From Pelobacter sp. (GTDB lineage: Bacteria; Desulfobacterota; Desulfuromonadia; Geobacterales; Pseudopelobacteraceae), in assembly GCA_030824515.1 (NCBI GenBank), contig JAVBXN010000015.1, forward strand, positions 1-64,000: DNA of 64,000 nucleotides, given 5' to 3'. Position numbers and translations under genes: made by a program. Below are positions 14,512 through 31,420 of the stretch, piece by piece (the first letter of the stretch is position 1; each line of letters starts with the position of its first letter). The notes below the pieces were generated by a model. The model worked only from the letters and a program-made list of their open reading frames with translations. It ran no database searches and had not been told where the DNA came from.

Positions 14512-14630
14512 GGAGCGGATATAATTACCGCTACGGCAGTCAAGTCGCAAGCGCTAATAATTTTTATCGGTCAATTGCCGGAATTCAGCGGGGAGGTTTT
14601 CAGGGTAGGTTTTGCTGGATAATCCGATTC

Positions 14631-15473
14631 TTATCCGGTTTCCCGGTCGCTTTCGTGCATCTCGATCATGCTGATCTCCATTGAATAAAGGTCGATCGCC
14701 AGTTGCCGCCCGCGCAGGGGCGTTCCCTGTCCCAGCAGCAGTTTGCAGACTTCGGCGACCTCCAGGCTGGCCACCACGGCCGGAGTGAAGGAGGGGTTTC
14801 CCAGTGATGTTTCGACCCCCTTGCACGATTTTTGCGCTCCATAGATGCTCTGAAGCGTGTCGTCTCCCGGGAACTGGGTCGTGACGTGCCCGAACCAGCC
14901 GGCTATGGCCCCGTGTACCAGCGGGATCCCCAGTGCGGAGCAGGCATCCGCCAGCTCGATACGAACTCCGATGCTGTCCAGGGCATCGACCGCCACCCGG
15001 CTTCCGTTCAGCAGCTCAACTCCGTTTTCAGCCGAGAATGCCGTTTGCCGCGCTATCAGCGTCACCGCCGGATTTATCCCGGTAACGCGCCGGAGTGCCG
15101 CTTCAACCTTGTACTGCCCCAGATTGTCCGGAGTGCTGAACAGCTGGCGGTTGAGGTTGTGCTCTTCGAACACATCCGGGTCGATGGCGACGATCGTCCC
15201 GACCCCCAGTCGCGCCAGTTCTTCGATGATGTATCCGCCCAGCCCGCCGCAACCGATCACCGCCACCCGGCTATGGAACAGCTCACGCTGGCCGGCCTGG
15301 GAGATGGTCTGGCGGTTGCGCTGGTAGCGGGCCGGCAGCAGGCCGTTATCGAGAATGATCCCTTCAACCAGGGCCGGAGACAGCGAGAAGCGCCGCGCGG
15401 CTTCAAGCTGATGTTGCCAGGCTACCAGATCTCCGACCGCACTCTCCCGGATGAAATCCAGCACGGCAATCAT
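14631..15473 (-). CDS. MoeB/ThiF/HesA-family adenylyltransferase
   Basis: This 280-residue E1-like enzyme has a Rossmann nucleotide site VAVIGCGGLGGYIIEE, then DPDVFEEHNLNRQLF, the Arg/Asn signature of the MoeB/ThiF family. Such enzymes adenylate the C-terminal Gly-Gly of a small sulfur carrier. It starts one base after the stop of the MoaD-like gene, so it should activate that partner, probably for pterin-cofactor (tungsten or molybdenum) synthesis for the nearby aldehyde oxidoreductase. No rhodanese domain is present. The C-terminal pair of CXXC zinc motifs typical of MoeB is not seen; only one Cys occurs in the SCKGVET segment. The ORF extension to 15545 overlaps moaD and was rejected. Confidence 0.83.
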   Translation of the reverse strand: MIAVLDFIRESAVGDLVAWQHQLEAARRFSLSPALVEGIILDNGLLPARYQRNRQTISQAGQRELFHSRVAVIGCGGLGGYIIEELARLGVGTIVAIDPDVFEEHNLNRQLFSTPDNLGQYKVEAALRRVTGINPAVTLIARQTAFSAENGVELLNGSRVAVDALDSIGVRIELADACSALGIPLVHGAIAGWFGHVTTQFPGDDTLQSIYGAQKSCKGVETSLGNPSFTPAVVASLEVAEVCKLLLGQGTPLRGRQLAIDLYSMEISMIEMHESDRETG

Positions 15474-15474
15474 T

Positions 15475-15699
15475 TCAGCCGCCTCCCAGCAGCGGGAACA
15501 ACGCCAGCGTGTCGCCTTCATCCAATACCCGGTCGAGTTTGACATGGCGGCTGTTGATCATCATGATGCCCAGCTCGTTGCGCGGCAGCTTCAGCACGTC
15601 GGCCACATCGGCCACCGTGGTTCCGGGCGGATAGTCTACTGTTTCGATCTCAAAGCGTCCGGTGCGGAACGAGGCGAACAGTTTTACGGTTACTCGCAT
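15475..15699 (-). CDS. MoaD/ThiS-like sulfur carrier protein
   Basis: This 74-residue beta-grasp protein ends in the activated-tail sequence FPLLGGG, the hallmark of MoaD/ThiS carriers, with the conserved DGDTLALFPL-like segment (here DEGDTLALFP). The C-terminal Gly is adenylated and then thiocarboxylated to donate sulfur for the dithiolene of pyranopterin cofactors. The MoeB-like gene follows after one base. AOR-linked MoaD homologues are common in organisms with tungsten enzymes, which fits the upstream AOR. A separate ThiS role is less likely because no thiamine genes are near. Confidence 0.85.
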   Translation of the reverse strand: MRVTVKLFASFRTGRFEIETVDYPPGTTVADVADVLKLPRNELGIMMINSRHVKLDRVLDEGDTLALFPLLGGG

Positions 15700-15709
15700 G
15701 GGCTGAACC

Positions 15710-16363
15710 TCAGGAATTAGTAAAATCGTTAACGCACTTATCCTGTTTATCAGGGCTAGGGAAATTAACGCTCAGGCGAACGGTGGATTGGTCGGGAAAC
15801 AGGTCTTCCCTGGACAACAGATGCGGCAGAATCGGGAAATTATCCAGCAGCGCCGAACGGCATCCCTGCCAGAAGTATTCGGACTTGCCGTTGAAAAAAC
15901 GGGACAGCTCTCCTGCCGGGATGATTATCCCCCGCTGGAGAAAACCGGGGCCTAATTCCGGCAGCAGCAGGTTGAAGAGTTTTACGCGTACGGTGGCATT
16001 GCGATCGACACCGTTTCCTGCAGTAGCGTGGTGCGTAATTCCTTCGCGCATCGCGGCATAATATCCGCCACGGCGCATCGTGGCGCCGACCAGCCCCGGC
16101 ATCGCTCCGGACAGGGCGATTACAGCGTCCTCGTTGATAATTGCCGTGGCCAGGCTGTCTATCGGGCGGCTGTTGAGAAAGATGGTCGTGATCCTCTGGG
16201 CTGCATACTCGGCCGGAATCTGCCACTGGTGGCTCAATAGCAGCTCCAGGCTGCAGCCGACATGTGCCTCGACCGTTACCCCCTTTTGCAGGAGCGGGAA
16301 GAAATCTCCCAGCCGGTCATGATCCATGTTCAGGATCAGGTTTGTTTTACGTTTATTTTTCAA
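15710..16363 (-). CDS. Unknown protein of the AOR/MoaD cluster
   Basis: I do not recognise this protein of about 217 residues. A TTG at 16363 is preferred as start: it overlaps the stop of the zinc-ribbon gene as TTGA and has GGGAG seven bases upstream. An ATG at 16327 would remove 12 residues. The protein is soluble and mixed alpha/beta, with a hydrophobic Gly-rich middle (ALSGAMPGLVGATMRRGGYY) followed by an ITHHATAGNG His pair that might bind metal or phosphate. It has no signal peptide. Its position between the zinc-ribbon protein and MoaD, in a tightly packed operon after AOR, suggests a role in maturation, cofactor insertion or electron transfer of the oxidoreductase. That is inference from context only. 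Confidence 0.65.
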   Translation of the reverse strand: MKNKRKTNLILNMDHDRLGDFFPLLQKGVTVEAHVGCSLELLLSHQWQIPAEYAAQRITTIFLNSRPIDSLATAIINEDAVIALSGAMPGLVGATMRRGGYYAAMREGITHHATAGNGVDRNATVRVKLFNLLLPELGPGFLQRGIIIPAGELSRFFNGKSEYFWQGCRSALLDNFPILPHLLSREDLFPDQSTVRLSVNFPSPDKQDKCVNDFTNS

Positions 16364-16605
16364 GGGGTCGCTCCCGTCTTTGATTTGTTCATATCCTCGG
16401 GGAGATGGAGCAGCCCGCAGCTTTGGCACTTGCCATAGCGTGCCGGAAGGTAAACCGTGTTGACGGAGAGGCATTTTTTGCAGAGCCAGAAATTGAAACC
16501 TGTCACTTCCCGGCCGGCCAGCTGGCTGAACTGCCAGCGATAGTAGGAGTCCCAGTCGTACTCGGGAGGTTGCTCCGCTTTTTTCACCAGTTGTTCCAGC
16601 AGCAT
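16360..16605 (-). CDS. Small zinc-ribbon-like protein of the AOR cluster
   Basis: From the ATG at 16605 (CGGAG upstream) the protein has 81 residues. The N-terminal half is acidic and aromatic (PPEYDWDSYYRWQF). The C-terminal half holds CKKC and CQSC separated by about 16 residues, a zinc-ribbon or rubredoxin-like tetra-cysteine knuckle. It overlaps the next gene by four bases. The Cys pairs could bind zinc for protein contacts or iron for electron transfer. The longer ORF to 16752 runs into hairpin-rich intergenic DNA and is not supported. Confidence 0.65.
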   Translation of the reverse strand: MLLEQLVKKAEQPPEYDWDSYYRWQFSQLAGREVTGFNFWLCKKCLSVNTVYLPARYGKCQSCGLLHLPEDMNKSKTGATP

Positions 16606-16643
16606 GTTGACTCCGGACCGGCTTGAAAATGGCTGTTCAAAAC

Positions 16644-16664
16644 GGCGGGGCAAATTGCCCCGCC
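16644..16664 (-). terminator. Hairpin between AOR and the zinc-ribbon gene
   Basis: A perfect palindrome (ten-base arms GGCGGGGCAA and TTGCCCCGCC around one base) is followed on the minus strand by GTTTTG. It may be a partial terminator or attenuator separating AOR from the maturation genes. Confidence 0.5.
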
Positions 16665-16709
16665 CGTCAGGAGAATTTACGGAGTTCAGATTTGCGTCAG
16701 GTTGTCCCC

Positions 16710-16772
16710 GCCCACAGGGACTCCGCGGAGGCGTAGCAGCGCTACGCCGCACAAGGAAGTCCCGCGGACGGG
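16710..16772. repeat. GC-rich inverted repeat downstream of AOR
   Basis: A core hairpin of GGCGTAGC (16730-16737), loop AGC, and GCTACGCC (16741-16748) is flanked by imperfect complementary arms containing CCGCGG. It is noncoding and lies between AOR and the next gene. Possibly a REP-like element; no second copy was noticed. Confidence 0.5.
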
Positions 16773-16806
16773 GTCGAGATGGCGGAAATATGGGCTCCGC
16801 CTTGTG

Positions 16807-18543
16807 CTACCAGTTGAAGACTTCGTCCAGTTCTTCATCTTTCATCATAAAGGTCTGGTTGTGCGGCGCGATCGGCTCGTTGTAGAAGAAACGCGGCAGA
16901 CGGTCGTGATGCTTGGTGAAGCCGGCCCGGGTGTTGAAATCGCGCTCGGCCGAGAGCACCTTCTTGCCCAGTGCCACAACATCGTCACCGGTCATGGTGA
17001 TGCCGTGGAAGGAACCGAGCATATCCAGCAGCGCCTGGAAGGTCTCGGGCTGATCCATGATCGCGAAAGCGATGAACAGGCACATGCCGGTGGAATCGAT
17101 GGCGGCGGTGGCAATCTGCAGGTTGCGTGACAGTTCGATCTGTCCTTCGGTCTTGAGCGGATCCACGTCGCCCCCCACCTTGAGGATGTTGGTCGCAATG
17201 GCGTAACCGGCGGTGTGGTCAGCGCCCTGGGTGGTGGTGGCGTAGGTGACGCCGATGCCCTGTACCGCCCGCGGATCGTAGGCCGGCAGCGCCTGGTCCT
17301 TGACCACCGGTACCCGCTCGACGCCGAAGACCTTGCCGGTGATGGCGGCGCCGCTGCCGAGTACGCGACCCAACGGAGTGCCTTTCTCTACCTCTTCCAT
17401 AAGGCGGATCGCGGCGGCATCGTCGCCGAATTCGGCCAGGCCGGCATCCATCGCCACGCCGATCGTGACTCCCATTTCAATCGTATCGACGCCGATGTTG
17501 TCGTCCATGTAGTCAAGCTTGGCAACGGTGTCCAGGTTGGAGATGCCGCAATGTCCGCCATGGGACCAGACCGTCTCGTATTCCGGCTGTTTGGTCACAT
17601 AGTTGCCGTCCTTGTCGTTATAGATACCGGAACACTGGATCACGCAGCCACGATGGCAACCGTGGGTGGCGGAACCGCCGCGCTGTATTTCCAGGGCGGC
17701 CTGGGTTTCGCCGCTCAGGTTGGCTGACTCTGCAAATTGTCCCGATTTGAAGTTGTAGGCCGGATAACCGCCGGCCTCGTTGAGTACGTTGGTCAGCACG
17801 TTGGTGCCGTAAGCCGGCAGGCCTTCGCCGGTGACCGGGTGCTTGCGCAGCCCTTCGACGAACTTGCGGTTGGCGTCGCGGTACTTCTCCGGATCCTTGG
17901 GGGGGCGCATCTTCATGCCGGCGTCGTCGAGGATGATCGCCTTGACCCGTTTGGCGCCCATTACCGCGCCTACGCCGCCACGCCCGCAGTGGCGGGTCGG
18001 TCGCAGCTCGGGGTCGGTGCAGGCGATCGAGGCTGCCAGCAGCTTGCGCTCGCCGGCCGAGCCGATGGTCATGTAGGCCACCTTGTCGCCATACTCCTCA
18101 CGCAGCTTGGCAACCAGCGGATAGTTGTCCATCAGTTTCAGGCTGTTGTCCACGATCACCTGGATGCCGTCCTTGTTGATCACGATCTTGTACAGATCGT
18201 CACCCTCCGGTTTTCCTTCCAGAACCACTGCGGCATAACCGAGGCGCGCCAGCACCTGGGCCGCCTGGCCGCCGGCGTTGGACTCCTTGATGGTGCCGGT
18301 CAGAGGGCTCTTGCAGCCGACCGAGAGACGGCCGGTCATGGAACCGGTGGTGCCGCTGAGCATGCCGGGAGAGATCACCAGTTTGTTCTCGGCGCCCAGT
18401 GGGTGGGCCAGCGGATGAACCTCGGCCGCTACCATCAGCGATGTCATCGCCCTGCCGCCCAGTCCGGCATACTCGCCGAGATCACCAACGGTTACCTTTG
18501 GGCCGCCCGCGGCCCCCATGTCGATTCGCGCAATTTTGTCCAT
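16807..18543 (-). CDS. Aldehyde:ferredoxin oxidoreductase-family tungsten enzyme
   Basis: The 578-residue protein is the usual AOR-family length. It has the N-terminal Gly-rich pterin region (GLGGRAMTS, then GTTGSMTGRLSVGCKSP), the RPTRHCGRGGVGAVMG signature and the 4Fe-4S cysteines Cys296, Cys300 and Cys304 in GCHRGCVIQC plus Cys488 near TGMCLF. The first spacing reads CX3C rather than the more common CX2C. Enzymes of this family oxidise aldehydes to acids with a tungsto-bispyranopterin and pass electrons to ferredoxin or a partner subunit. The exact substrate is not predictable. Downstream MoaD- and MoeB-like genes support cofactor demand. The mycofactocin locus ends 148 bases upstream on the same strand. 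Confidence 0.88.
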   Translation of the reverse strand: MDKIARIDMGAAGGPKVTVGDLGEYAGLGGRAMTSLMVAAEVHPLAHPLGAENKLVISPGMLSGTTGSMTGRLSVGCKSPLTGTIKESNAGGQAAQVLARLGYAAVVLEGKPEGDDLYKIVINKDGIQVIVDNSLKLMDNYPLVAKLREEYGDKVAYMTIGSAGERKLLAASIACTDPELRPTRHCGRGGVGAVMGAKRVKAIILDDAGMKMRPPKDPEKYRDANRKFVEGLRKHPVTGEGLPAYGTNVLTNVLNEAGGYPAYNFKSGQFAESANLSGETQAALEIQRGGSATHGCHRGCVIQCSGIYNDKDGNYVTKQPEYETVWSHGGHCGISNLDTVAKLDYMDDNIGVDTIEMGVTIGVAMDAGLAEFGDDAAAIRLMEEVEKGTPLGRVLGSGAAITGKVFGVERVPVVKDQALPAYDPRAVQGIGVTYATTTQGADHTAGYAIATNILKVGGDVDPLKTEGQIELSRNLQIATAAIDSTGMCLFIAFAIMDQPETFQALLDMLGSFHGITMTGDDVVALGKKVLSAERDFNTRAGFTKHHDRLPRFFYNEPIAPHNQTFMMKDEELDEVFNW

Positions 18544-18690: not shown

Positions 18691-20130
18691 CTATGTAGCC
18701 TGTTCCATCTGCCGGGAGATGTCGATCCGGTAGCTGGAGAAGCATCTGCGGCTCAGGCAGCCCCAGAATACTCCCGTACCGTAGGCCAGCTGTTCCAGCA
18801 GGTAGATGAAGCAGAAACTGATAAAAGCAAGTTTTGGTTTTTTGATCGCATGATCGACACCGGCGGTGCACAGCAGCGCGGCGGCCGGCAGTAGCCACGA
18901 CCAGGGGCCGGGAACGGTCAGCGCCACCAGCAGTAGCGGCACGGCGTAGTAACGCACCAGATGGTAGCAGAGGTAATACAGCAGGCTGCCGAGCGCCCGC
19001 AGGCGTCCGCCCAGTATTGATGCAAAGCCGATCGGGAGCTGACGGCGTGACAGGCGGATGCGGGTTGTCACCGCGTCGAATGCCAGCACAGCTGCCGCCA
19101 GCAGCAGCGGCCACCAACCAGTGAAGGGAGCCAGCAGGGAAAGCGCCAGCACCAGCGCCAGCAGGGGGGGGATGACCATCTGTTTGCGCCTCTGCGGATG
19201 CAGCAGTTGCAGCATCCCCTCGGAGGTGCCGTAATCGAAGCGGCGGGACATGAAGGAGCGGATCGAGCTGCGGTGCTCATGCAGCACGTTGCCGGCCGGT
19301 AGATAGGCGATACTCCAGCCCTGGTCGCGAAGGCGCCAGGTCAGGTCCACGTCTTCACCCACATGCATCTCGTCCTTGAAGCCGCCGGCGCCGGTGAAGG
19401 CGCTGCGCCGTACCAGCAGGTTGCAGCTGGGGAGGTAGAAGGTGTCGTTGCCGCTGTTGCCGGTGCGCTCCCTGGTGCCGATCGAGAGGCTGGACATGAC
19501 CGCTTCGTAGCGATCTACGGCCGATTCGCTGCACATGCCGTCCACCTGTCCTCCGACCGCGGCCATGGCCGGATCGTTGAAGGCGGGGATCAGCTGGTCG
19601 AGCCAGCCGGTTGAGGCGCAGCAGTCGGAATCGATGAAGGCCAGTATTTCCCCGGTGGCCCGGGATGCGCCGACGTTGCGGGCCGCGGCCGGGCCTCTGC
19701 CGCAGCCGCCCGAAGGCACCAGCAGCGCGCCGGATTCCCCGGCCACCAGCGGCGAGTCGTCGCTGCTGCCGTCATCAACCACGATGACCTGGATTTTTTC
19801 CCTGGGATAACTGAGGCGGGCCAGCGAGGCCAGGCAGCGTTTCAATTCATCGGCGCGATCCTTGACCGGTATCACTACCGAGACGCCGGGCAATGTCTCC
19901 GGCTGCCTGAGCGTGCTCCGCAGCCGCTCCATGAACCCTTTTTTCACCAGCTGTTCCATTACAGCGCTCTCGCCTTCGGAAGCGCTGATCAGCGAGCCGT
20001 CCAGGCCGCGTCCGACGAGTTCGGCCAGTGAACGGTTCAGGCGCAGGGCGCGCAGTGGAGTATTGGATATGAGAAAACTGTTCCCGTCCCGTTCAAGCAG
20101 CTCCACATTTTGCGCCAGGCGGTAGATCAT
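18691..20130 (-). CDS. mftF: Mycofactocin glycosyltransferase MftF
   Basis: This 479-residue protein has the MftF architecture. An N-terminal PqqD-like region (about 1-80) is followed by a GT2 glycosyltransferase domain (about 83-320) with VSVVIPVKDR, VIVVDDGSSDD, the FIDSDCC metal site and the GEDVDLTWR acceptor motif. A C-terminal membrane region of four to five helices follows (about 325-455). MftF adds a beta-1,4-glucose chain to the mycofactocin core in mycobacteria. It overlaps etfB by four bases and is the last gene of the mft operon. The family call is strong because the precursor, MftB and MftC lie in the same operon. Confidence 0.88.
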   Translation of the reverse strand: MIYRLAQNVELLERDGNSFLISNTPLRALRLNRSLAELVGRGLDGSLISASEGESAVMEQLVKKGFMERLRSTLRQPETLPGVSVVIPVKDRADELKRCLASLARLSYPREKIQVIVVDDGSSDDSPLVAGESGALLVPSGGCGRGPAAARNVGASRATGEILAFIDSDCCASTGWLDQLIPAFNDPAMAAVGGQVDGMCSESAVDRYEAVMSSLSIGTRERTGNSGNDTFYLPSCNLLVRRSAFTGAGGFKDEMHVGEDVDLTWRLRDQGWSIAYLPAGNVLHEHRSSIRSFMSRRFDYGTSEGMLQLLHPQRRKQMVIPPLLALVLALSLLAPFTGWWPLLLAAAVLAFDAVTTRIRLSRRQLPIGFASILGGRLRALGSLLYYLCYHLVRYYAVPLLLVALTVPGPWSWLLPAAALLCTAGVDHAIKKPKLAFISFCFIYLLEQLAYGTGVFWGCLSRRCFSSYRIDISRQMEQAT

Positions 20131-21008
20131 GAGGTCAACCCCTCTTCGCGGAAGATCCGCAAAAGTCCCTTGACCGTGTCATCGGCCGAAAGCACGTTGA
20201 GTTTGCCTTCGCGGGCCTTGATGCCGCCCGAGAGCAGCGAAAGGATGCGCTCGAAGGCCGGCAGTTTCGGGTCAGGCGTCACCACCCGGACCGGGTCGGG
20301 GCGCGGAACGCCGAAATCGGCCGCCGCCAGGTAAGCGCCGCTGGCGCCGATCTCCCAGAAGGGCAGGCCCAGGTTCGTCAGATGCCATGCCTCGACCGGC
20401 GCCGAGATTGCGCGGGTGACCGCATCGACTGACGGATAGCGGGGTGTGCGGACCTCCTCGAACAGGACCGTGCAGGGCAGGGGGGCCTCGACGTTCTGGC
20501 GCGCGCCCCGGTCCGACTTGCGTTGGGCTTCAACCCGCTCCCCTTTCGGGACAAACGAGACGGCGGCGCCGATGCAGGGCATGCCTAGCGTGGCGGCGGC
20601 CAGGGCCGGTGCGGGGTCGTCACCACGATCAACCAGGCGGCTGCCGCTGAAGAGCAGGTCCGGCGACAGGATTTTTACGATGCGCGCCAGGACCCGGGCG
20701 TCGGTCGTTGCGTCGCCACCCTCCAGGCCGTGCTCCCAGAAACGGATGCAGCGGTTGGCCCCCATGGAGCTGGCCAGCCGCAGTGTGTCGTCCAGCCGTT
20801 TCGGGCCGACGGCCAGCACGGTCACCTTTGCTCCCAACGTGTCCTGCAGGTGCAGCGCCTCTTCCAGCGCCGACAGGTCGGCCGGGTTCGGCACGCGCCG
20901 CAGGCCGCGTTCACTGATGCCCGCCCCGCGGCTGGTGACGCTGGCCGGAGGGCGGGGGTCGTTGGTCTCTCGCAGCAGGACCAGTATGTCGAGTTTGTTG
21001 TCAGGCAT
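20127..21008 (-). CDS. etfB: Electron transfer flavoprotein beta subunit
   Basis: The 293-residue protein has the EtfB fold: an N-terminal LDILVLLRETNDP strand, NPADLSALEEALHL, and the AMP/FAD region GDDPAPALAAATLGMPCIGAAV. ETF beta pairs with EtfA to hold FAD and carry electrons between flavin dehydrogenases and ETF:quinone oxidoreductase. It is separated from fixX by 91 bases carrying a stem-loop, the only real gap between the etfA-fixCX genes and mftF. Cytoplasmic. Sequence alone does not show whether the ETF is bifurcating. Confidence 0.85.
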   Translation of the reverse strand: MPDNKLDILVLLRETNDPRPPASVTSRGAGISERGLRRVPNPADLSALEEALHLQDTLGAKVTVLAVGPKRLDDTLRLASSMGANRCIRFWEHGLEGGDATTDARVLARIVKILSPDLLFSGSRLVDRGDDPAPALAAATLGMPCIGAAVSFVPKGERVEAQRKSDRGARQNVEAPLPCTVLFEEVRTPRYPSVDAVTRAISAPVEAWHLTNLGLPFWEIGASGAYLAAADFGVPRPDPVRVVTPDPKLPAFERILSLLSGGIKAREGKLNVLSADDTVKGLLRIFREEGLTS

Positions 21009-21040
21009 TGGATAACTCCGGAAAATTCAAATTATGAATT

Positions 21041-21089
21041 ATGAATTATGAAGGTTGAATTTTTTCATCCTTCATCCTTCATAATTCAT
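21041..21089. repeat. Stem-loop repeat between fixX and etfB
   Basis: Nineteen-base arms (ATGAATTATGAAGGTTGAA and its complement, 18 of 19 paired) lie at 21041-21059 and 21071-21089. The same TTCATAATTCATCCTT unit recurs at 39455-39507, so it is a dispersed repeat. Confidence 0.7.
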
Positions 21090-21099
21090 CCTTGCTTTT

Positions 21100-21378
21100 T
21101 TACGTCATTCTATACGCCACCCCGAAGCCGCCCCGGGGGTAGCGCCAGCGGGTGAAGGCGTTTTTGTGGCAGACGACGTAGCAGGTGCCGCATTCCAGGC
21201 AGCCGTCGTGCACGAAGGTCATCTTCTGCTCTTCCTGCGACCAGGTGTAGCAGCGGGCCGGACAGGAGTTGACGCAGCCGCGGTTGTCGCAACCGGTGCA
21301 GATCTCATAGTTGAGGACGATATGGGCTTCGCGGTCGACCGTGAAGCTGGTGTTGTCGAAAATCTCGTCGATATTCAT
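21100..21378 (-). CDS. fixX: FixX-like ferredoxin of ETF:quinone oxidoreductase
   Basis: This 92-residue ferredoxin has two Cys clusters, CTGCDNRGCVNSCPARCY and CLECGTCYVVC, consistent with at least one 4Fe-4S site, and the FixX-like C-terminus RWRYPRGGFGVAYR. FixX carries the iron-sulfur cluster of the FixCX ETF:quinone oxidoreductase. Its start overlaps the fixC stop by four bases. It should act at the membrane, passing electrons from ETF through FixC to quinone. Confidence 0.87.
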   Translation of the reverse strand: MNIDEIFDNTSFTVDREAHIVLNYEICTGCDNRGCVNSCPARCYTWSQEEQKMTFVHDGCLECGTCYVVCHKNAFTRWRYPRGGFGVAYRMT

Positions 21379-22673
21379 AGTGCTCTCCAGGCGCTGAAAC
21401 CGTCCGCCAGCAGTTTGCCAAGGCCGACCTTTTCCCTGGCCGATTTCAGGAACAGGCTGGTAACGTTCTGCTTGGGCAGGCCTTCAATCTTGTAGATGTT
21501 TTCCATGAAGTCGCACATCATCTCCGGGTATTCATGGTAGATGCGGTTGTTGTGCAGCATGTGCGGGGCATTGCGGGCCTGTTTGAGGTCCTTGATGACA
21601 AAGCTCTCCTCAAGGAGTTTCTTGTAAGCGGTCAGTCCCTGCTTGCTGAAGTCGCCGGCCCGGTGGGCGGCTATCACCGCTTCTCCGGCCACGACTCCCG
21701 AGTGGGAGGCCAGATTGATCCCTTCCAGGTTCAGGCCGGTGGCGTTGCAGAAAGCGGCCGCGTCGCCGGCCACGATGATTCCGTCGCCGACCAGCTCCGG
21801 AATCATGTCATAGCCCCCTTCCGGAATCAGGTGGGCCGAGTATTCCAGCAACCTGCCGCCGCTGATCATCTTGGCCACCTGGGGCTGCTCCATGAAGGCG
21901 TTCAACAGGTCGTAGGGGGTCTTGCCGCTGGTGCGCAGGCTGGCCAGGTGGAAGACCAGGCCGAGCGAGAGCGAATCGTAGTTGGTATAGAAACATCCTC
22001 CGCCGCGCACGCCCTCGGTGCAGCCGACGAACTCGTTGGCAAAGCCCTGGTCGCGAACCAGACCGAATCGTTCGTCAATCATCTCGCGGGGCATGTCGAT
22101 CAGCGCCTTGACTCCGACCGCCATCTGGGCCGGATCGAAGGTCGGCTTGCGCAGACCGGCTTTCTGGGCCGTGAATGAAAGCACACCATCGGCGGCGACC
22201 AACACCGGGGCGCTGATCTGTCCGCTGCGCCCCAGGATCGTGACGCCGGCGATCTTGCCATTCTTGAGTACAATCTCGTCGACCGTGGAGCGGGTGATCA
22301 GCGTGGCCCCGGCGGCTACGGCTTCTTCGGCCAGCCAGCGGTCGAAACGCGGGCGGAAGACCGTGTATCCGTTGTAAGGCGGCTTGTCGAAACTTCCGGC
22401 CTCGATGGTGGTGCTGAAGCTGGAGTCACCGGTCATGAAGGTGACACCCTTCTTGATGATGTGGCGCTCCAGCGGGGCCCGCTCCCAGAAATCGGGGAAG
22501 ATCTTTTCCAGGGAGGGCATCCGGTGCAAAAGGCCGCCGAACATGTTTTTTTCACCCGGGAAACTGCCCCGTTCCACCAGGGCCACATCCAGTCCGGCGC
22601 GGGCCATGGTCAGCGCGGCCGAGGAGCCGGCCGGCCCTGCTCCGATCACGATTGCCTGATAAGTCTTGCTCAT
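21375..22673 (-). CDS. fixC: FixC-like ETF:quinone oxidoreductase flavoprotein
   Basis: The 432-residue FAD protein begins with the dinucleotide site AIVIGAGPAGSSAALTMARAG and has the FixC/ETF-QO signatures GEKNMFGGLLHR and GIIVAGDAAAFCNATG. It transfers electrons from ETF to the quinone pool, together with FixX. Short overlaps with etfA and fixX on both sides show a single transcription unit. The first Rossmann motif is intact and the length is that of FixC rather than the longer mitochondrial ETF-QO. Placement inside a mycofactocin operon suggests it drains electrons from mycofactocin-linked oxidation. Confidence 0.87.
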   Translation of the reverse strand: MSKTYQAIVIGAGPAGSSAALTMARAGLDVALVERGSFPGEKNMFGGLLHRMPSLEKIFPDFWERAPLERHIIKKGVTFMTGDSSFSTTIEAGSFDKPPYNGYTVFRPRFDRWLAEEAVAAGATLITRSTVDEIVLKNGKIAGVTILGRSGQISAPVLVAADGVLSFTAQKAGLRKPTFDPAQMAVGVKALIDMPREMIDERFGLVRDQGFANEFVGCTEGVRGGGCFYTNYDSLSLGLVFHLASLRTSGKTPYDLLNAFMEQPQVAKMISGGRLLEYSAHLIPEGGYDMIPELVGDGIIVAGDAAAFCNATGLNLEGINLASHSGVVAGEAVIAAHRAGDFSKQGLTAYKKLLEESFVIKDLKQARNAPHMLHNNRIYHEYPEMMCDFMENIYKIEGLPKQNVTSLFLKSAREKVGLGKLLADGFSAWRAL

Positions 22674-23674
22674 GGCGCACCTCCGTTGGCTGCTTTGACC
22701 TGTGTCAGAAGGCGCGGCAGCACCTCCTTCAGGTCGGCCACGAACCCTTCATCTACGTTTGGAAAGATCGGGGCCTTGGAGTCCAGGTTGACCGCCACGA
22801 TCCGGCGGGAATCCTTGATGCCGCCCACGTGGTGCATCGAGCCGGAGATGCCCAGCGCTACATACAACCTGGGGGTCACGGTGCGGCCGGTCTGGCCGAC
22901 CATGCGCTCGAAGCCGGTCCAGCCCAGGTCGTAGACCGGGCGGGTAACGCCGTAGGAAACGTTCAGCAGGCGGCAGAGTTCCTTGAATTGCTCAAAGGTG
23001 GCCGGGTCGCACCCCTTGCCGACGCTGAAGATCACTTCCGCTTCGGTCAGGTCTACTGTCTGCGGGTCGGGCGGTATCCGGCCGGTTACAGCTGTGGTTG
23101 CCCCGGTGATCGCTGCCGTGGAACGCCAGACAGCCACCGACGGTGTGGTGGCTCGTACGGTCGGCATCAGTACCTGACTCAGGAAGCGCGGCGGCACCGT
23201 GGCCACCAGCGGACGTGAATCGTCCCAGATTCTGGTTTCGGCGATGCGCAGGCCAAGCGCCCGTCGCGAGAGGCGCACACCATCCGGGCTCTGCCTGGCG
23301 GTGACCAGTTCTGTGATGATCGCGGCGTCCAGTTCCTGCGCAATGGCGGGAGCCAGTGTCGTTCCCAGGTCGTTGTGGGGCAGGATCACTATCCGGGCCA
23401 GTTCATCCCGCGCGACCCGGGCCAGAGCCTTGCCGAGCAGCGCCGGCGTATCCAGCAGTGTTTCGCAACCGGGCAGCGCTGTTATGGTCGGAGTGCCGTA
23501 GCTGCCGAACGCGTCCAGTTGGCTGCTGTCGGGCTGCGGCACGGTTACCGCTCCCCAGGGGGCATCCAGGATGCCGGCCAGTCGCGCTCCGTAGGAGAGC
23601 AGGCCACGGCCGGTCTCGTCGAGTTCGCCGCCCGGAAGATCGACAAAAACGAGAATTTTGCCGTTGATGCCCAT
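22670..23674 (-). CDS. etfA: Electron transfer flavoprotein alpha subunit
   Basis: This 334-residue EtfA has a divergent N-terminal domain and the conserved C-terminal FAD domain: YVALGISGSMHHVGGIKDS and AVNLDSKAPIFPNVDEGF. It pairs with EtfB, four genes away in the same operon. Its start shares one base with the stop of the OYE-like gene (TGATG), and its stop overlaps fixC. ETF accepts electrons from cytoplasmic flavoproteins; here the OYE-like protein or a mycofactocin-reoxidising enzyme is the likely donor by context. Confidence 0.87.
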   Translation of the reverse strand: MGINGKILVFVDLPGGELDETGRGLLSYGARLAGILDAPWGAVTVPQPDSSQLDAFGSYGTPTITALPGCETLLDTPALLGKALARVARDELARIVILPHNDLGTTLAPAIAQELDAAIITELVTARQSPDGVRLSRRALGLRIAETRIWDDSRPLVATVPPRFLSQVLMPTVRATTPSVAVWRSTAAITGATTAVTGRIPPDPQTVDLTEAEVIFSVGKGCDPATFEQFKELCRLLNVSYGVTRPVYDLGWTGFERMVGQTGRTVTPRLYVALGISGSMHHVGGIKDSRRIVAVNLDSKAPIFPNVDEGFVADLKEVLPRLLTQVKAANGGAP

Positions 23675-25635
23675 CAGAGCTCCCTCCCGATCTTATGCCC
23701 TTCCCAGATGGCCATATCGACCTTGCGGGGAGAAACGCAGTCGCCGATCCGATAGAGTTCCGGAACCTTGCCCTTCAGGCTCATGTACAGGTCGTCGTCA
23801 ACCTGCTGTCCCATGGCCAGCACCAGCGAGTCATAGGGACCCCACTCGTTCCAGACATTGGAGTAGACGTTGAAACCCTTGACCGTCTTGGCTCCTGCCT
23901 CGCCGGCGACTTCCATCACGGCGATGTCCGGGGTAAAGGTGACCCCCTTCTGCAGCAGTCGCTGTCTTGACGAGTAAAGATCCTGGGTTGGTCCCAGTTC
24001 GGCGCAGATGAACAGGCTGGAGGTGATCATGTCGACTTTTTTGCCCTGGTTTGCCAGGAATTCCGCGGTTGCGGTGGCCCGCTGGTGGCCGTCGTAGTCG
24101 ATCAGGCAGACCTTCTCGCCCAACTCGGCCTCACCGTTTAGCACCTGCACCACGTTGAAGATCGCGGGGCCGTCGGCGCCGCCGACCGGGTGCCTCTTGG
24201 GGACGCTGCCGGTGGCCACGATCACCACATCGGCCTGGTCGGCCAGCAGCTGCTCGGTGGTTGCCTCAACGCCCAGTTTCACGGTTACGCCGGATTTATC
24301 GATCTGGCTCTTCTCGTTGCGGATAATGACACCGAACTCGTCGCGTCCGGTCCCTTTCATGGCGGTGATTACCTGTCCGCCGAGGTTCTCGCCCCGGTCG
24401 ATCAGGGTGACCTGATGGCCGCGCCGATTGGCCATCTTGGCGGCCCACATGCCGGCCGGACCACCGCCGACGATGGTAACCCGTTTTTTGACGCCGGCTT
24501 TGGTCAGGGTGCCTTCACCCCACTCCTTTTCACGGCCGACAGCCGGGTTCTGGACACATCCCAGGGCCTTGTTCATGCCGATGCGGCCGATGCAGCCCTG
24601 GTTGCAGGCGATGCAGTAGCGGATGTCGTCCATACGCCCTTCCAGGGCTTTCTTGGGCAGGAACGGATCGCAGATCAGGGCGCGGCACATGCCGATCATG
24701 TCGGCCTGACCGCTGGCCAGCACCTTCTCGGCCATGACCGGATCGTTGATGCGCCCGGTGCAGAAGACCGGCAATTTGATACGCTCGCGCACGCCGGCCG
24801 CCAGCGGTATGGTGTAGCCCAGCGGGGTGTGCATCGAGCCTTCCACCAGGTACAGGTTGTAGAAAGTGGCTATGGAAAGGTCCATGAAGTCGATCAGACC
24901 GGAGGCCTCGAAACGGGCGCAGATCTCCTGCACCTGGGCCAGGTCCAGGCCGCCCGGGATCATCTCGTCGGCGCACATGCGGATGCCGAGGGTGAAGTCG
25001 TTGCCGACCGCTTTCCTGACCGCCGATATGAACTTGAGCGGCGCGCGCATGCGGTTTTCCAGCGATCCGCCGTATTCGTCCTGGCGGTGATTGGTCAGCG
25101 GCGAGAGGAACTGGCGCGCCAGACTGGAATGGCCGAACTGGATCTCGATCCCGTCGAAACCGCCTTCGCGGACATGAATGGCGCTCTTGGCAAAATAGCG
25201 GGTTACCTCCTCGATATCCTCCGGTTCCATCGCCTTGGGTACCTCGCGGAACAGCACGTCCGGAACCGGCGACGGCGCCCAGACCGGCAGGCGGGAGATG
25301 CTGCCGTCTCCCTGCTGACCGTTGTGGTTCAGCTGGGCGAAGATCTTGGAGTCGTACTGGTGCACGTAGTCGGTGATCTTCTTGAAACCGGGAATTACCT
25401 CGGAATGGTAGACGTCGATCAGTTTCTCGTAGGACATGTCGGTCGGGTGGACGGTCAGCTCTTCGGTGATGATCAGGCCGGCGCCGCCTTTGGCGCGCTC
25501 GCCCCAGTAATACATCTGCCGCTCACTCGGCAGGTTGCCTACCGCCAGGTTGGTCAGGTGAGGCTGGAAGGAGATGCGGTTCTTGACCTCGACCGTGCCG
25601 ATCTTGAGGGGTGAGAACAGATTCGGGAACATCAT
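23674..25635 (-). CDS. FadH/old yellow enzyme-family oxidoreductase of the mycofactocin locus
   Basis: From the ATG at 25635 (CAAGGAG upstream) the protein has 653 residues. An N-terminal FMN TIM-barrel (about 1-330) is followed by a 4Fe-4S site (Cys341, Cys344, Cys348, Cys360) and FAD/NAD(P)-binding domains with VTIVGGGPAGMWAAKMA. This is the 2,4-dienoyl-CoA reductase/2-enoate reductase layout. The FadH segment that normally carries a catalytic Tyr reads FGHSSLARQFLSP here, so the Tyr appears to be Ser. Members of this family are recurrent companions of mycofactocin genes. Its substrate may be an enoate or the cofactor itself. The upstream 29 residues of the longer ORF are translated repeat DNA. 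Confidence 0.85.
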   Translation of the reverse strand: MMFPNLFSPLKIGTVEVKNRISFQPHLTNLAVGNLPSERQMYYWGERAKGGAGLIITEELTVHPTDMSYEKLIDVYHSEVIPGFKKITDYVHQYDSKIFAQLNHNGQQGDGSISRLPVWAPSPVPDVLFREVPKAMEPEDIEEVTRYFAKSAIHVREGGFDGIEIQFGHSSLARQFLSPLTNHRQDEYGGSLENRMRAPLKFISAVRKAVGNDFTLGIRMCADEMIPGGLDLAQVQEICARFEASGLIDFMDLSIATFYNLYLVEGSMHTPLGYTIPLAAGVRERIKLPVFCTGRINDPVMAEKVLASGQADMIGMCRALICDPFLPKKALEGRMDDIRYCIACNQGCIGRIGMNKALGCVQNPAVGREKEWGEGTLTKAGVKKRVTIVGGGPAGMWAAKMANRRGHQVTLIDRGENLGGQVITAMKGTGRDEFGVIIRNEKSQIDKSGVTVKLGVEATTEQLLADQADVVIVATGSVPKRHPVGGADGPAIFNVVQVLNGEAELGEKVCLIDYDGHQRATATAEFLANQGKKVDMITSSLFICAELGPTQDLYSSRQRLLQKGVTFTPDIAVMEVAGEAGAKTVKGFNVYSNVWNEWGPYDSLVLAMGQQVDDDLYMSLKGKVPELYRIGDCVSPRKVDMAIWEGHKIGREL

Positions 25636-25668
25636 GGTGGTAGCTCCTTGAATTGATGCATTGTTTTC

Positions 25669-25756
25669 TCCCCCCTTTACGAAAGGGGGGCAGGGGGGAT
25701 TTGGTTTTAACGTCCACGGCAAATCCCCCTGAATCCCCCTTTCAAAAAGGGGGACT
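25669..25756. repeat. GC-rich double-palindrome repeat, copy 1
   Basis: Two hairpins are joined by a short spacer: CCCCCCTTTACGAAAGGGGG and CCCCCTTTCAAAAAGGGGG, with GGGGATTT and AAATCCCC inner tracts. It lies in the gap between mftC and the OYE-like gene. Copies with the same layout occur at 28050-28129 and 48086-48175. Confidence 0.85.
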
Positions 25757-25765
25757 TTAAATTAA

Positions 25766-26806
25766 TCAGGCCGCTTCAGCCAACCGGTTATCGGCAATTG
25801 ATGTCACGCAGCGCTCCAGACACTCGGGGTCACCGCCGTTGATGTCGTTCTTGAGATGCCAGGCCACGGCCGGGCAGCCGCCGTGACACTGGTCGAAGCG
25901 CTGGCACTCCTCGCAGGAGTGGATGCGCAGGTTGCGGAACGACTCGTATATCTCCGAACCGTCCCAGATTTCCTGGAAACTGTTCTGGCGCAGGTCGCCG
26001 GCCTCGAAACGATCGGTCTGCAGAAAGGCGCAGGGGTACATGTGTCCGGTGGGACTGACGCAACAGGTCAGTTTGGCCGCGCCGCACAGGTTTAGTCCCA
26101 ATCCCTGTCGCTCCTGGCTGGTCAGCGAGAAGAAGCTGTCACCGGTGCGCACGTCGCCGCTGGATGACAGCCAGTCGGAAAAAGCCAGCAGCTGGGCCGG
26201 GGAGGGACGCAGGCTTTCCCAGTTGTCGGCGCCGCGACCGGATGGGCGGAAACGGCTGACTCGCAGAGATACGCCCAGGGAGCTGGCCATTTCGTGCATG
26301 GCCGGAATCTCGTCGGCGTTCTGGGCGGTCAGCACGGTGTTGATGCTGGTGGGAATTTTGGTTGCGGCCAGCAGTTTGACCGCTGCAATCGCTGCATCGA
26401 AGACGCCTGCGCCGCGAATCGCATCACAGGTTTCACGCTTGGCTCCATCCATGCTGACCTGGATTGCGACCAGCCGGTTTCTGGAAAGCCGCGCCACCAG
26501 TTCGGGGGTGAACAGTGTGCCGTTGGTGGAGATGCAGGTCATGATGCCATGGGAGTGGCAGGCCGCCAGGATCTCTTCGAAATCAGGGCGGATGAACGGC
26601 TCGCCCCCGCCGAAATTGACCTGGAAAACTCCTGCCGTGTGCAGCTGTTCAACCAGGTCGAGCGCCTCGGCTGTCGTCAGCTCGTTGCAGGCTTTCTCTC
26701 CAGATGACGAGAGGCAGTGGCTGCATCGCAGGTTGCAGGCCAGGGTGACCTCCCAGGTCAGGTTTACCGGGGAACGCATTCCCATTTCGACGTATTTATT
26801 GCTCAT
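25766..26806 (-). CDS. mftC: Mycofactocin radical SAM maturase MftC
   Basis: The 346-residue protein has the radical SAM CX3CX2C motif (Cys24, Cys28, Cys31 in ACNLRCSHCLSS) after PVNLTWEVT, the GGGEP SAM motif, and a C-terminal SPASM domain with Cys-rich CGAAKLTCC, CEECQRFDQCHGGC and a final Cys. MftC oxidatively decarboxylates the C-terminal Tyr of MftA and cross-links it to the adjacent Val. The start codon lies 11 bases inside the end of mftB, indicating translational coupling. The first ten genes' order (A-B-C) and the family phrases VNLTWE and CLSSSG match known MftC. Cytoplasmic, requiring S-adenosylmethionine and iron-sulfur clusters. Confidence 0.93.
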   Translation of the reverse strand: MSNKYVEMGMRSPVNLTWEVTLACNLRCSHCLSSSGEKACNELTTAEALDLVEQLHTAGVFQVNFGGGEPFIRPDFEEILAACHSHGIMTCISTNGTLFTPELVARLSRNRLVAIQVSMDGAKRETCDAIRGAGVFDAAIAAVKLLAATKIPTSINTVLTAQNADEIPAMHEMASSLGVSLRVSRFRPSGRGADNWESLRPSPAQLLAFSDWLSSSGDVRTGDSFFSLTSQERQGLGLNLCGAAKLTCCVSPTGHMYPCAFLQTDRFEAGDLRQNSFQEIWDGSEIYESFRNLRIHSCEECQRFDQCHGGCPAVAWHLKNDINGGDPECLERCVTSIADNRLAEAA

Positions 26807-27044
26807 GGAGAAATCCTTTTTCCAGGAGTTGAGTTACGAATTTGTTCAGGGCCATCTTCTGGGATTCGGAAACGCCTGCGGGGAATTCGTCCCGCCTGCG
26901 GATGGTTCCGAAAAAATCGGCCGGGATGAGGGTGCCAGTGGCCGCGAAGAGCAGGCGCGGTCCCCTGCAATCGTAAAACAGGAGACCGAACCTCTCTTGC
27001 CGCGCGCGGCAGGACGGATGCAGCTTTATGCCTGCCGCAGCCAT
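26796..27044 (-). CDS. mftB: Mycofactocin precursor-binding protein MftB
   Basis: From the ATG at 27044 the protein has 82 residues. The diagnostic MftB segment is RQERFGLLFYDCRGPRLLF near the N-terminus, followed by a helical PqqD-like region (RRDEFPAGVSESQK to LLEKGF). MftB is a RiPP recognition element that binds the MftA leader and presents it to MftC. It begins one base after the mftA stop and overlaps mftC by 11 bases. The longer ORF to 27119 overlaps mftA and lacks a start signal. Confidence 0.9.
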   Translation of the reverse strand: MAAAGIKLHPSCRARQERFGLLFYDCRGPRLLFAATGTLIPADFFGTIRRRDEFPAGVSESQKMALNKFVTQLLEKGFLHEQ

Positions 27045-27045
27045 C

Positions 27046-27153
27046 CTAGTAAACCCCGCAGATTCCGTCGATTGCGAGCTCTTCAACCTGGATTTCCTCC
27101 AGGATGCGGGGCTCCTCACTGCAAGTTACTTCTGCCTGAAATTCTGCTTCCAT
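27046..27153 (-). CDS. mftA: Mycofactocin precursor peptide MftA
   Basis: This 35-residue peptide has an acidic leader (EEIQVEELAI) and ends in IDGICGVY, the MftA core signature (IDGMCGVY in mycobacteria) with Ile for Met. MftC acts on the terminal Val-Tyr. A strong ribosome-binding site (AAAGGAGAG) precedes the ATG at 27153, and mftB starts one base after the stop. The longer in-frame ORF reaching 27453 reads through the promoter region and is not real. The peptide is the source of the redox cofactor premycofactocin/mycofactocin in the known pathway. This tiny gene is the best single evidence that the locus is mycofactocin and not another PqqD/radical SAM system. Confidence 0.93.
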   Translation of the reverse strand: MEAEFQAEVTCSEEPRILEEIQVEELAIDGICGVY

Positions 27154-28049: not shown

Positions 28050-28129
28050 AACCCCTCTAAATCTCCCCTTATCTAAGGGGAGACTTAAAGGCTTCCCCCT
28101 TTGTGAAAGGGGGATTGAGGGGGATTTGC
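28050..28129. repeat. GC-rich double-palindrome repeat, copy 2
   Basis: Two adjacent hairpins (CTCCCCTTATCTAAGGGGAG and CCCCCTTTGTGAAAGGGGG, followed by GGGGGATTT) fill the gap between the Nudix and MFS genes. Same family as at 25669 and 48086. Confidence 0.85.
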
Positions 28130-28174
28130 TTTTGAATGTACAAAACAGGAATAAATGGATTGTCCCAACCAATC

Positions 28175-30361: not shown

Positions 30362-31420
30362 TCATCGCGGTTCGATCAGCCTGCGCGGAATTGCATCCCC
30401 GATGGAGAGCTCCTGCAATAGCCCTCTGGTCAGGAATCCTTCGACCTCTTTCAGCGCGGCCTGGTTGTGCGGTACATTATCCAGCTTGCCACCCGCCATC
30501 ATGCCGTGCCCTCCGGCCATCCCTCTTCCCGCCACAAGTCTTTTGATGATTTCTCCCGCATTCAGGAGATGGCTGGTGGTGCGGATCGAGAGGATTACTT
30601 CGTCGTTGTAATGCCCGATGCTCAGCACGGTTTCGATACCCTCGAGCCTGATCAGGTAGTCGGCCATTTCCGAAACCACTTCGGGAAAACAGATCTCCTG
30701 AAGGTTTACAACCAGCAGCTTTCCGTAAATCGTCGCGTTTTCAACTCCGCTGTGGATTGTGCGAAAGTGCTCCACAGGCAGTTTGGGGTTGGTTATCTCA
30801 TACAGAAGCCGCTTGTTCGCCAGGGGGAAGAGGCGCAGATACGCCTCCCGGTCGGGCCGGGTCGCCTCCCGGCCCAGATCCTGAGTTTCGGATTTGATCG
30901 CGTAGAACAGGGCCGTGGCCAGTTTCGTGCCGATGGTGATGTCCTGCGCCAGCAGGTATTCGTACAGTATCGTGGCGGTCACACCGTAATCATCGCGAAT
31001 GTCCACCCAGCGGCAACTTTTGCTCGTTTCGCGCAGCGGGTGATGATCGATGACAATATCGACCCGCCGATCCGGGGCAAGGGAGTTGTTGCCCGTGCCC
31101 GGCTGGGTGTCGAGCATGCAGACCGCGCTGTATTCATTCAGATCCACCATTTCCAGCGGGATCATCGTTATATCCAGTTGCCTGGCCATGGCGATGTTCT
31201 CGCTGCGCCCGATCATGCCGGAAAAGGTGATCAGGGCATCCCTGCTAAGCTTCATGGCCAGCAGGTGGCGCAGCGCCATGGCTGATGCCAGGCAATCCGG
31301 ATCCGGATTGTCATGGATGATGATAATGGTCTTTCCCTTGCCACGCAGCCATTCCAGCATCCCGTCTGAATTGGCTTTTGAGCGACGGAGACTCTCAGGT
31401 ACGCAGTCATCGCTATTCAT
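30362..31420 (-). CDS. DHH-family phosphoesterase
   Basis: From the ATG at 31420, with GAGGAGG seven bases upstream, the protein has 352 residues. It carries the DHH motifs: HDNPDPDC (motif I), CMLDTQPG (motif II) and IVIDHHPL (motif III) with a C-terminal GGHGMMAGG DHHA1-like Gly-rich motif. Relatives hydrolyse cyclic dinucleotides, pAp or short oligoribonucleotides using manganese. The substrate cannot be assigned from the sequence. The gene overlaps glpD by eight bases and may be cotranscribed with glpKD. An internal polar stretch replaces the membrane and PAS parts of GdpP, so it is a stand-alone soluble type. Confidence 0.87.
   Translation of the reverse strand: MNSDDCVPESLRRSKANSDGMLEWLRGKGKTIIIIHDNPDPDCLASAMALRHLLAMKLSRDALITFSGMIGRSENIAMARQLDITMIPLEMVDLNEYSAVCMLDTQPGTGNNSLAPDRRVDIVIDHHPLRETSKSCRWVDIRDDYGVTATILYEYLLAQDITIGTKLATALFYAIKSETQDLGREATRPDREAYLRLFPLANKRLLYEITNPKLPVEHFRTIHSGVENATIYGKLLVVNLQEICFPEVVSEMADYLIRLEGIETVLSIGHYNDEVILSIRTTSHLLNAGEIIKRLVAGRGMAGGHGMMAGGKLDNVPHNQAALKEVEGFLTRGLLQELSIGDAIPRRLIEPR

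Follow-up and report, generated by a model that had tools for sequence, protein, structure and literature searches.

A conserved flavoprotein block in mycofactocin loci that alternates with mftD and may act as a quinone-linked premycofactocin synthase

How mycofactocin could be completed without an aerobic step is the question raised by a locus in Pelobacter sp. (phylum Desulfobacterota), which lies in the first 64,000 nucleotides of contig JAVBXN010000015.1 (assembly GCA_030824515.1); this whole stretch is referred to below as the window. In mycobacteria, MftD is the flavoenzyme that deaminates AHDP to premycofactocin (PMFT). According to the passages of PMC7491314 drawn on here, a Mycobacterium smegmatis strain lacking mftD accumulates AHDP and produces no mycofactocin, which makes MftD essential in this species, and passages of PMC8406134 describe the step as aerobic. 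Geobacter-type anaerobes nevertheless carry mft loci. In the window, genes for OYE2, a flavoprotein named after old yellow enzyme (OYE), for both subunits of an electron transfer flavoprotein (ETF), and for FixC and FixX stand between mftC and mftF. Where mftABC and mftF are present and mftD is not, some other enzyme must deaminate AHDP, and OYE2 with ETF is the extra component common to most such genomes seen here; we therefore propose that OYE2, ETF, and FixCX together form an O2-independent, quinone-linked premycofactocin synthase that converts AHDP to PMFT, a proposal that we regard as narrowly probable.

The window locus and its missing genes

Profile searches and open reading frames (ORFs) gave the order mftA-mftB-mftC-OYE2-etfA-fixC-fixX-etfB-mftF on the minus strand at 18691..27153 of the window. 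The genes and one adjoining neighbour are listed below, with scores in bits against the curated cut-offs of NCBIfam.

27046..27153, minus strand: mftA, precursor peptide of 35 amino acids, core IDGICGVY (TIGR03969, 42.6 against 25; NF040489, 43.9 against 30)
26796..27044, minus strand: mftB, peptide chaperone (TIGR03967, 62.5 against 33, scored on the longer ORF 26796-27119)
25766..26806, minus strand: mftC, radical SAM/SPASM maturase (TIGR03962, 342.8 against 265)
23674..25632, minus strand: OYE2, FadH/trimethylamine-dehydrogenase-type flavoprotein with FMN, 4Fe-4S, and FAD/ADP domains, the proposed dehydrogenase of the relay (TIGR03997, 1009 against 793.15; PDB relatives, motifs, and model fold)
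22670..23674, minus strand: etfA, ETF alpha subunit (PF00766, PF01012; NF038209 below its cut-off; PDB relatives)
21375..22673, minus strand: fixC, ETF:quinone-oxidoreductase-type flavoprotein (PRK10015/FixC models below their cut-offs; solved relatives)
21100..21378, minus strand: fixX, ferredoxin-like protein with two 4Fe-4S motifs (profile and Pfam searches, sequence, motifs of relatives)
20127..21008, minus strand: etfB, ETF beta subunit (PF01012; nearest solved relative listed as an ETF beta subunit)
18691..20130, minus strand: mftF, glycosyltransferase (TIGR03965, 391.1 against 280)
16807..18543, minus strand: aldehyde:ferredoxin oxidoreductase-type protein adjoining mftF, a conserved neighbour not counted in the relay (PF01314, PF02730)

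All nine genes named by the first-pass annotation were found in the order and at the places it gave, and its identification of MftA, MftB, MftC, and MftF was borne out, all four scoring above the NCBI cut-offs. The C-terminus of MftA, IDGICGVY, carries a Val-Tyr core. The genes had also been called almost gapless, which was a fair description of the intergenic distances measured from mftA to mftF (1, -11, 133, -1, -4, -4, 91, and -4 bases in order) apart from two gaps of about 100 bases. The OYE2 start at 25632 was picked from relatives; the longest ORF would begin at 25722. EtfA and EtfB scored below the cut-offs of the mycofactocin-associated ETF families of NCBI (NF038209, 135.6 against 240; TIGR04503, 74.1 against 200). 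Palindromic repeats of the CCCCCTTT...AAAGGGGG kind were noticed in the mftC-OYE2 gap (25633-25765) and upstream of mftA (about 28060-28140).

The source genome comprises 4.65 Mb and is 100% complete by a computed figure. Zero matches to MftD (TIGR03966) were obtained in the whole genome, and the locus thus lacks this part of a canonical one. No MftE (TIGR03964) above the cut-off was found in the genome; one creatininase elsewhere in it scored 117.7 bits against 172. Weak creatininase matches were present in 22 of 30 genomes, none above the cut-off, including genomes without MftC. Because the same weak match occurs in relatives without MftC, the genomic creatininase is no sign of MftE, and this candidate was set aside. 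MftG (TIGR03970) gave zero matches in this genome and was above the cut-off in none of 68 genome handles (some of them the same assembly, MftD-bearing ones included), three of which gave weaker matches.

Conservation of the block and its alternation with mftD

Among 395 genomes drawn from the phylum, MftC was above the cut-off in 18. TIGR03997, the OYE2 family, was above its cut-off in 15 of these 18 genomes compared with 1 of the 377 others (Fisher P about 2e-23, relatedness ignored). The sole OYE2 genome lacking MftC above the cut-off (G393, 75% complete) has a partial MftC match of 110 residues beside its OYE genes. As for the three MftC genomes without OYE2 above the cut-off, G381 has MftD; in G113 and G142, the contig that carries the locus is short. 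Loci of six families (f1, which is the window's own, f6, f16, f27, f90, and f99) showed the complete order mftB-mftC-OYE2-etfA-fixC-fixX-etfB-mftF.

Named genomes were also scanned with an MftC alignment, and the best 80 of 139 loci were kept. At the locus level, which covers about 10 kb on each side of mftC at most, OYE, ETF, and FixC occurred together near mftC in 45 of the 80 loci, and OYE with or without ETF in 10 more. The carriers of the block include Geobacter argillaceus, Geobacter sp. OR-1, and Anaeromyxobacter oryzae. The 25 loci without OYE above the script threshold were 19 of a Desulfobacterales-type clade (type III, described below) and L108, L110, L123, L127, L135, and L137; the loci of L108 and L110 end at a contig end. 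A search of relatives for the same order had been suggested by the first-pass annotation, with loss of synteny named as the sign of chance cotranscription. The order recurred across families and the synteny held across genera, as expected for ETF and FixCX genes that belong to the mycofactocin system. The recurrence of the order in families other than the window's own shows that the operon arrangement is not due to chance. These results demonstrated that OYE2-etfA-fixC-fixX-etfB is a conserved unit, found in loci of six Desulfobacterota families as well as on Streptomyces and haloarchaeal plasmids.

Three types of locus were distinguished. The type I locus has the arrangement of the window. 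The type II locus, which is Desulfobacterales-type, has two OYE genes (OYEb and OYE2). In L030 and L031, the type II loci read whole, etfA and etfB are separated by genes for a cytochrome-type protein and a CCG/4Fe-4S protein instead of fixC and fixX; in L030 the former has seven CxxCH motifs and the latter five hydrophobic stretches. In type II, the dehydrogenase and ETF are retained and the electron outlet differs. Three further loci (L035, L152, and L165) were noted as type II, although cut. In addition, a second MftC-like SPASM protein (28-32% identity) was observed after etfB in a type II locus (L030:1-738 and L173 near 10177, the same gene). The type III locus, also Desulfobacterales-type, comprises a mycofactocin-coupled short-chain dehydrogenase/reductase, mftABC, often mftF, larE, larB, larC, and an aldehyde oxidoreductase, with no OYE or ETF at the locus. 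The nickel-pincer genes larE, larB, and larC adjoin the mft genes in most of the loci L142-L160, L036, L032, L134, L136, and L139. The type III MftA core was seen to end mostly in GIY rather than GVY.

The alternation with mftD was observed in 12 plasmid mft loci (Streptomyces, 7; Haloterrigena, Halolamina, Thermomicrobium, Tsukamurella, and Mycolicibacterium), each covered for 8-14 kb on each side of mftC on the plasmid itself. OYE2, ETF, and FixCX without mftD were found in eight of these loci, mftD without OYE or ETF in four, and both in none (Fisher P 0.002, relatedness ignored). One of the eight, SAT1, has no annotated OYE2 gene, and its OYE2 match is split into two parts; for the lavendulae plasmid, which carries no annotation, the genes were located with tblastn. 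Both kinds of locus occur within Streptomyces, where the block, with a second OYE, directly follows mftC in the place that mftD takes in the mftD-bearing plasmid of the genus. An mftG annotation was found in 2 of the 12 loci, only beside mftD. The first-pass annotation had placed the relay in an anaerobe, which was too narrow, as the same block is carried by Streptomyces and haloarchaeal plasmids.

Genome-wide searches covered 50 of the 80 named loci, picked for long flanks, a missing block, and spread; the genome sets overlap and were not summed (G381, G416, and L127 are one genome, as are G481, G413, and L123, and G484, G415, and L126). OYE2 was above the cut-off in 37 of the 50 genomes, MftD in 3, both in 1, and neither in 11. 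An informative case is KA08 (L127), a Desulfuromonadales metagenome-assembled genome (MAG) that is 99% complete. In its family, MftC was found in 9 of 44 genomes. OYE2 follows mftC in seven of these, and MftD was absent genome-wide in the four of the seven that were searched (L121, L122, L125, and L126). In the other two (G381, which is KA08, and G481), the gene after mftC is mftF, and the contig also carries an MftD gene. In G481 (L123, 76% complete), MftD lies beside mftB. In KA08, MftD lies about 18 kb from the mft locus and was therefore counted from the genome-wide searches; an ORF near it resembles an iron alcohol dehydrogenase, as judged by eye.

In KA08, the block is gone and an in-frame scar lies between mftC and mftF. 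The gap retains 54 bases around the OYE2 start (local score 68; coding part alone, 38), which are followed in the same frame by the end of etfB, with a score of 80 without mftF bases and 112 with them. As a control, 1000 random stretches of L126 scored at most 34. L126 groups with KA08 on the MftC tree (SH-aLRT 99), belongs to the same genus by group codes, and has the complete block. Since this relative keeps the block and KA08 bears the scar, the whole block was lost in a lineage that holds MftD. MftG was above the cut-off in neither KA08 nor G481. Collectively, the alternation leads us, on balance, to see the block as a second premycofactocin synthase, O2-independent and coupled to respiration, which would have been swapped with MftD in both directions more than once across Desulfobacterota, Actinobacteria, and haloarchaea.

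OYE2, its electron carriers, and the proposed reaction

The solved relatives of OYE2 by sequence were 2-naphthoyl-CoA reductase, dienoyl-CoA reductase, trimethylamine dehydrogenase, histamine dehydrogenases, and 6l6j, which is titled 6-hydroxypseudooxynicotine amine oxidase. The AlphaFold model of OYE2 (pLDDT 85.3) aligned to all of these relatives over about 630 residues with Z from 43.7 to 47.3. Against 2tmd, Z was 46.3 with a root-mean-square deviation of 2.4 over 631 residues, indicating the full-length three-domain fold. The fold alone does not decide the enzyme type, because 6qkg (Z 47.3) and 1ps9 (Z 45.2) also match.

In an alignment of 62 OYE2 rows (as in the EtfB and FixX alignments, some rows repeat one genome), the FAD/ADP-type motif in the first Rossmann stretch was present in all 62. 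GxGxx[GA] in the second Rossmann stretch was present in none, and the window has LIDYDGHQRA there. Because this second motif is lost, NAD(P) is an unlikely partner of OYE2, as in trimethylamine dehydrogenase. A tyrosine common to the compared enzymes, which we take to be the proton donor of ene-reductases, is replaced in 62/62 rows (Ser in 60, Gly in 2). The four Fe-S cysteines were complete in 42 of the 62 rows, and the OYE2 of the window has all four. An active site identical to that of trimethylamine dehydrogenase was considered and rejected, as the residues differ.

For the electron carriers, the nearest solved relative of EtfB by sequence was 1o94, presumably a complex with trimethylamine dehydrogenase, that is, this enzyme's own ETF. 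The nearest solved relative of FixC was 7koe FixC, followed by 2gmh ETF-QO; 7koe, which we take to be a bifurcating complex, was also the best match of EtfA. The DGDTAQ stretch of 5ol2 EtfB, which we assume to mark electron bifurcation, was found in none of 54 EtfB rows and not in the window EtfB. Electrons would probably reach the quinone pool through ETF, and to this extent the dedicated route from mycofactocin to the quinone pool that had been suggested for the locus stood; its starting point did not fit as well, as the block alternates with mftD and not with mftG.

A precedent for such a relay is Pno, an FMN/4Fe-4S/ADP enzyme of the family of OYE2. According to passages of PMC7688666, Pno deaminates an amine using neither NAD(P) nor O2 and passes its electrons to EtfAB and then to an ETF:ubiquinone oxidoreductase encoded in its own cluster. 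In the proposed reaction, OYE2 would oxidise AHDP by two electrons at the carbon that bears the amine, and water would hydrolyse the resulting imine to the ketone. EtfAB would receive the electrons from OYE2 and hand them to FixC/FixX, which would deliver them to menaquinone, and MftF would then glycosylate the product. What was observed is the order of the genes and its recurrence in other families, the alternation with mftD, the KA08 scar, the missing mftG, and the lost NAD(P) motif and predicted fold of OYE2; from these we infer AHDP as the substrate, the direction of electron flow, quinone as the acceptor, and the chemistry itself.

Weighing the explanations against known systems

Several results weigh against a premycofactocin synthase. 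OYE2 is closer in sequence to 2-naphthoyl-CoA and dienoyl-CoA reductases than to trimethylamine dehydrogenase, and its second Fe-S cysteine is Asp in 20 of the 62 rows. In trimethylamine dehydrogenase, a Cys presumably binds FMN covalently and a Tyr-His-Asp set is presumably catalytic; OYE2 has Leu at the position of this Cys and keeps only the His of the set. A whole ETF with an ETF:quinone oxidoreductase looks costly for a low-flux biosynthetic step. Across the 50 genomes, the negative association of OYE2 and MftD was not significant (P 0.16). Among the 31 genomes of the window's clade, MftD was found in 2 of 3 without OYE2 and in 1 of 28 with it (P 0.019, calculated after the pattern had been seen). 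The MftC tree (92 rows, those shorter than 250 residues left out; 62 rows of known state for the pair counts) gave five independent pairs differing in MftD, in which the block was opposite in 3.9 on average and the same in none (p 0.125); this test cannot reach 0.05 because there are only five pairs. One 5.5 Mb MAG (G409, L117) has the block and two MftD genes (L182 and L183), which lie on contigs without any other matched mft gene. Nine of the 11 genomes with neither OYE2 nor MftD above the cut-off belong to the type III clade, in which neither system was found in 9 of the 15 genomes of the set; some MftC organisms may do without both, or the assemblies may miss them. Finally, no scar was found in two other loci without the block (L123 and L135), and the genome of L135 has no MftD either.

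The serious rival, a sharpened form of the first-pass reading, is that OYE2-ETF-FixCX is an analogue of MftG, which would reoxidise mycofactocinol (PMFTH2 and its glycosides), pass the electrons to the quinone pool, and so couple mycofactocin-dependent alcohol oxidation to anaerobic respiration. With MftG above the cut-off in none of the 68 handles, another route would be needed, and passages of PMC11778925 (eLife 2025) state that about 25% of mftC genomes lack mftG, leave the replacement enzymes open, and report a PMFT potential of -255 mV, which makes quinone reduction downhill. A five-gene respiratory relay would suit a high-flux job, the cytochrome-type and CCG iron-sulfur proteins in the FixCX slot of L030 and L031 are another likely membrane route, and the two plasmid mftG annotations stand only beside mftD. 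However, this explanation gives no reason for the block and mftD to replace each other, it requires each genome that has the block and lacks MftD to possess a further AHDP deaminase, and KA08, which has MftD, lost the block yet has no MftG above the cut-off. The alternation with mftD and not with mftG agrees better with a part in biosynthesis, in place of the aerobic reaction of MftD, than with a route draining reduced mycofactocin into respiration, and we consider the latter possible but rather doubtful. Neither of the two explains the type III genomes with neither system or G409 with both. The two roles might also be combined in a general flavoprotein outlet serving both AHDP deamination and mycofactocinol reoxidation, perhaps through two OYE paralogues (OYE1/OYE2 in Streptomyces; OYEb/OYE2 in Desulfobacterales-type loci). 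Tandem OYE-type genes do precede etfA in Streptomyces plasmids and type II loci, each with one ETF pair, but only one OYE2, which would have to do both, is present in the window locus and in each of its Desulfuromonadales relatives (in two pieces in L096), and such a combination seems improbable. A bifurcating FixABCX-like complex, in which EtfAB-FixCX would split electrons between quinone and ferredoxin to feed MftC or the adjoining aldehyde ferredoxin oxidoreductase, would agree with 7koe as the best solved match of FixC and EtfA and with the two 4Fe-4S motifs of FixX. It is nevertheless very unlikely, given the similarity of EtfB to the presumed trimethylamine dehydrogenase partner 1o94, the missing DGDTAQ stretch, and the lack of an NAD(P) motif in OYE2. 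For mere chance neighbours in an operon no point in favour was found; the order shared by several families, the clean loss of the whole block, and its presence in Actinobacteria and Archaea as well leave this scarcely credible, and the synteny across families contradicts it.

Further genes surround the locus. Downstream of mftF (14631-18543), the aldehyde:ferredoxin oxidoreductase-type gene is followed by a gene for a 205-amino-acid protein (likely start 16327) and a ThiF-type gene. In 51 loci with at least 9 kb downstream of mftC, an aldehyde oxidoreductase match of at least 45 bits was found in 39 and the 205-amino-acid protein in 28. This protein has no Pfam match, and a fold comparison of its model (pLDDT 77) with the PDB found nothing at E 0.001 or below. 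Of the seven iron-alcohol-dehydrogenase matches of the genome, four are on the contig of the locus but beyond the window (G000:C43:97187-113838), at a distance of about 70-87 kb from mftA. The flanks (11162-14550 and 31413-34525) hold CydC/CydD-type ABC exporter genes, a glycerol kinase, and a glycerol-3-phosphate-dehydrogenase-like gene, and single loci have scattered neighbours such as sensor kinases and transporters.

Parts of the system are already known to NCBI curators, as TIGR03997, NF038209, and TIGR04503 have mycofactocin in their names. A figure in Haft 2011 includes a Geobacter uraniireducens cluster, and passages of this paper (PMC3023750) call the MftD and MftE families not universal. 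In the open-licence literature searched, we found neither the alternation with mftD across phyla, nor the scar, nor ETF/FixCX as a part of an MftD replacement. Searches of the same literature for mycofactocin together with electron transfer flavoprotein or nickel-pincer, and for mycofactocin in anaerobic Desulfobacterota, found nothing, and mycofactocin with old yellow enzyme gave only a coumarin-degradation paper, known by its listing. If true, the proposal would explain how the cofactor is completed in anaerobes and in Streptomyces and haloarchaeal loci without mftD, and mycofactocin would become predictable in genomes missed by rules that require mftD.

Compared with the actinobacterial mftABCDEF(G) cluster, the window shares MftA, MftB, MftC, and MftF above the cut-offs and the same type of C-terminal core, whereas it lacks mftD, mftG, and an mftE above the cut-off and has OYE2-etfA-fixC-fixX-etfB between mftC and mftF. 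MftG, of the GMC family, would be the same electron sink as that proposed in the respiratory rival, but it belongs to an unrelated protein family and was not found here. Closest to the window is the Streptomyces plasmid block OYE1-OYE2-mft_etfA-FAD oxidoreductase-4Fe4S-mft_etfB, whose genes are annotated under the names of NF038209, TIGR04503, TIGR03996, and TIGR03997. The kinds of gene, their order, the place after mftC, and the mftD-free stretch are shared, whereas the window has one OYE and no mftE above the cut-off, and its ETF subunits do not reach the curated cut-offs. Saccharopolyspora clusters are likewise without mftD and with a TIGR03997 gene, as passages of the BGCFlow paper (PMC11162802) remark of the OYE gene found where mftD is missing, and a report cited there is said to show methylated mycofactocin in Saccharopolyspora erythraea, a point in favour of the proposed synthase; unlike the window, these clusters are actinobacterial, and the word flavoprotein is absent from the main text of that paper. 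With Pno and trimethylamine dehydrogenase, OYE2 shares the fold family, the clustering of ETF and ETF:quinone oxidoreductase with the dehydrogenase (Pno), and an amine substrate (proposed for OYE2). Unlike OYE2, both enzymes are catabolic and act on nicotine-derived or methylated amines, and the residues of trimethylamine dehydrogenase differ from those of OYE2. The Pno structure, according to passages of PMC7688666, is likewise without covalent FMN.

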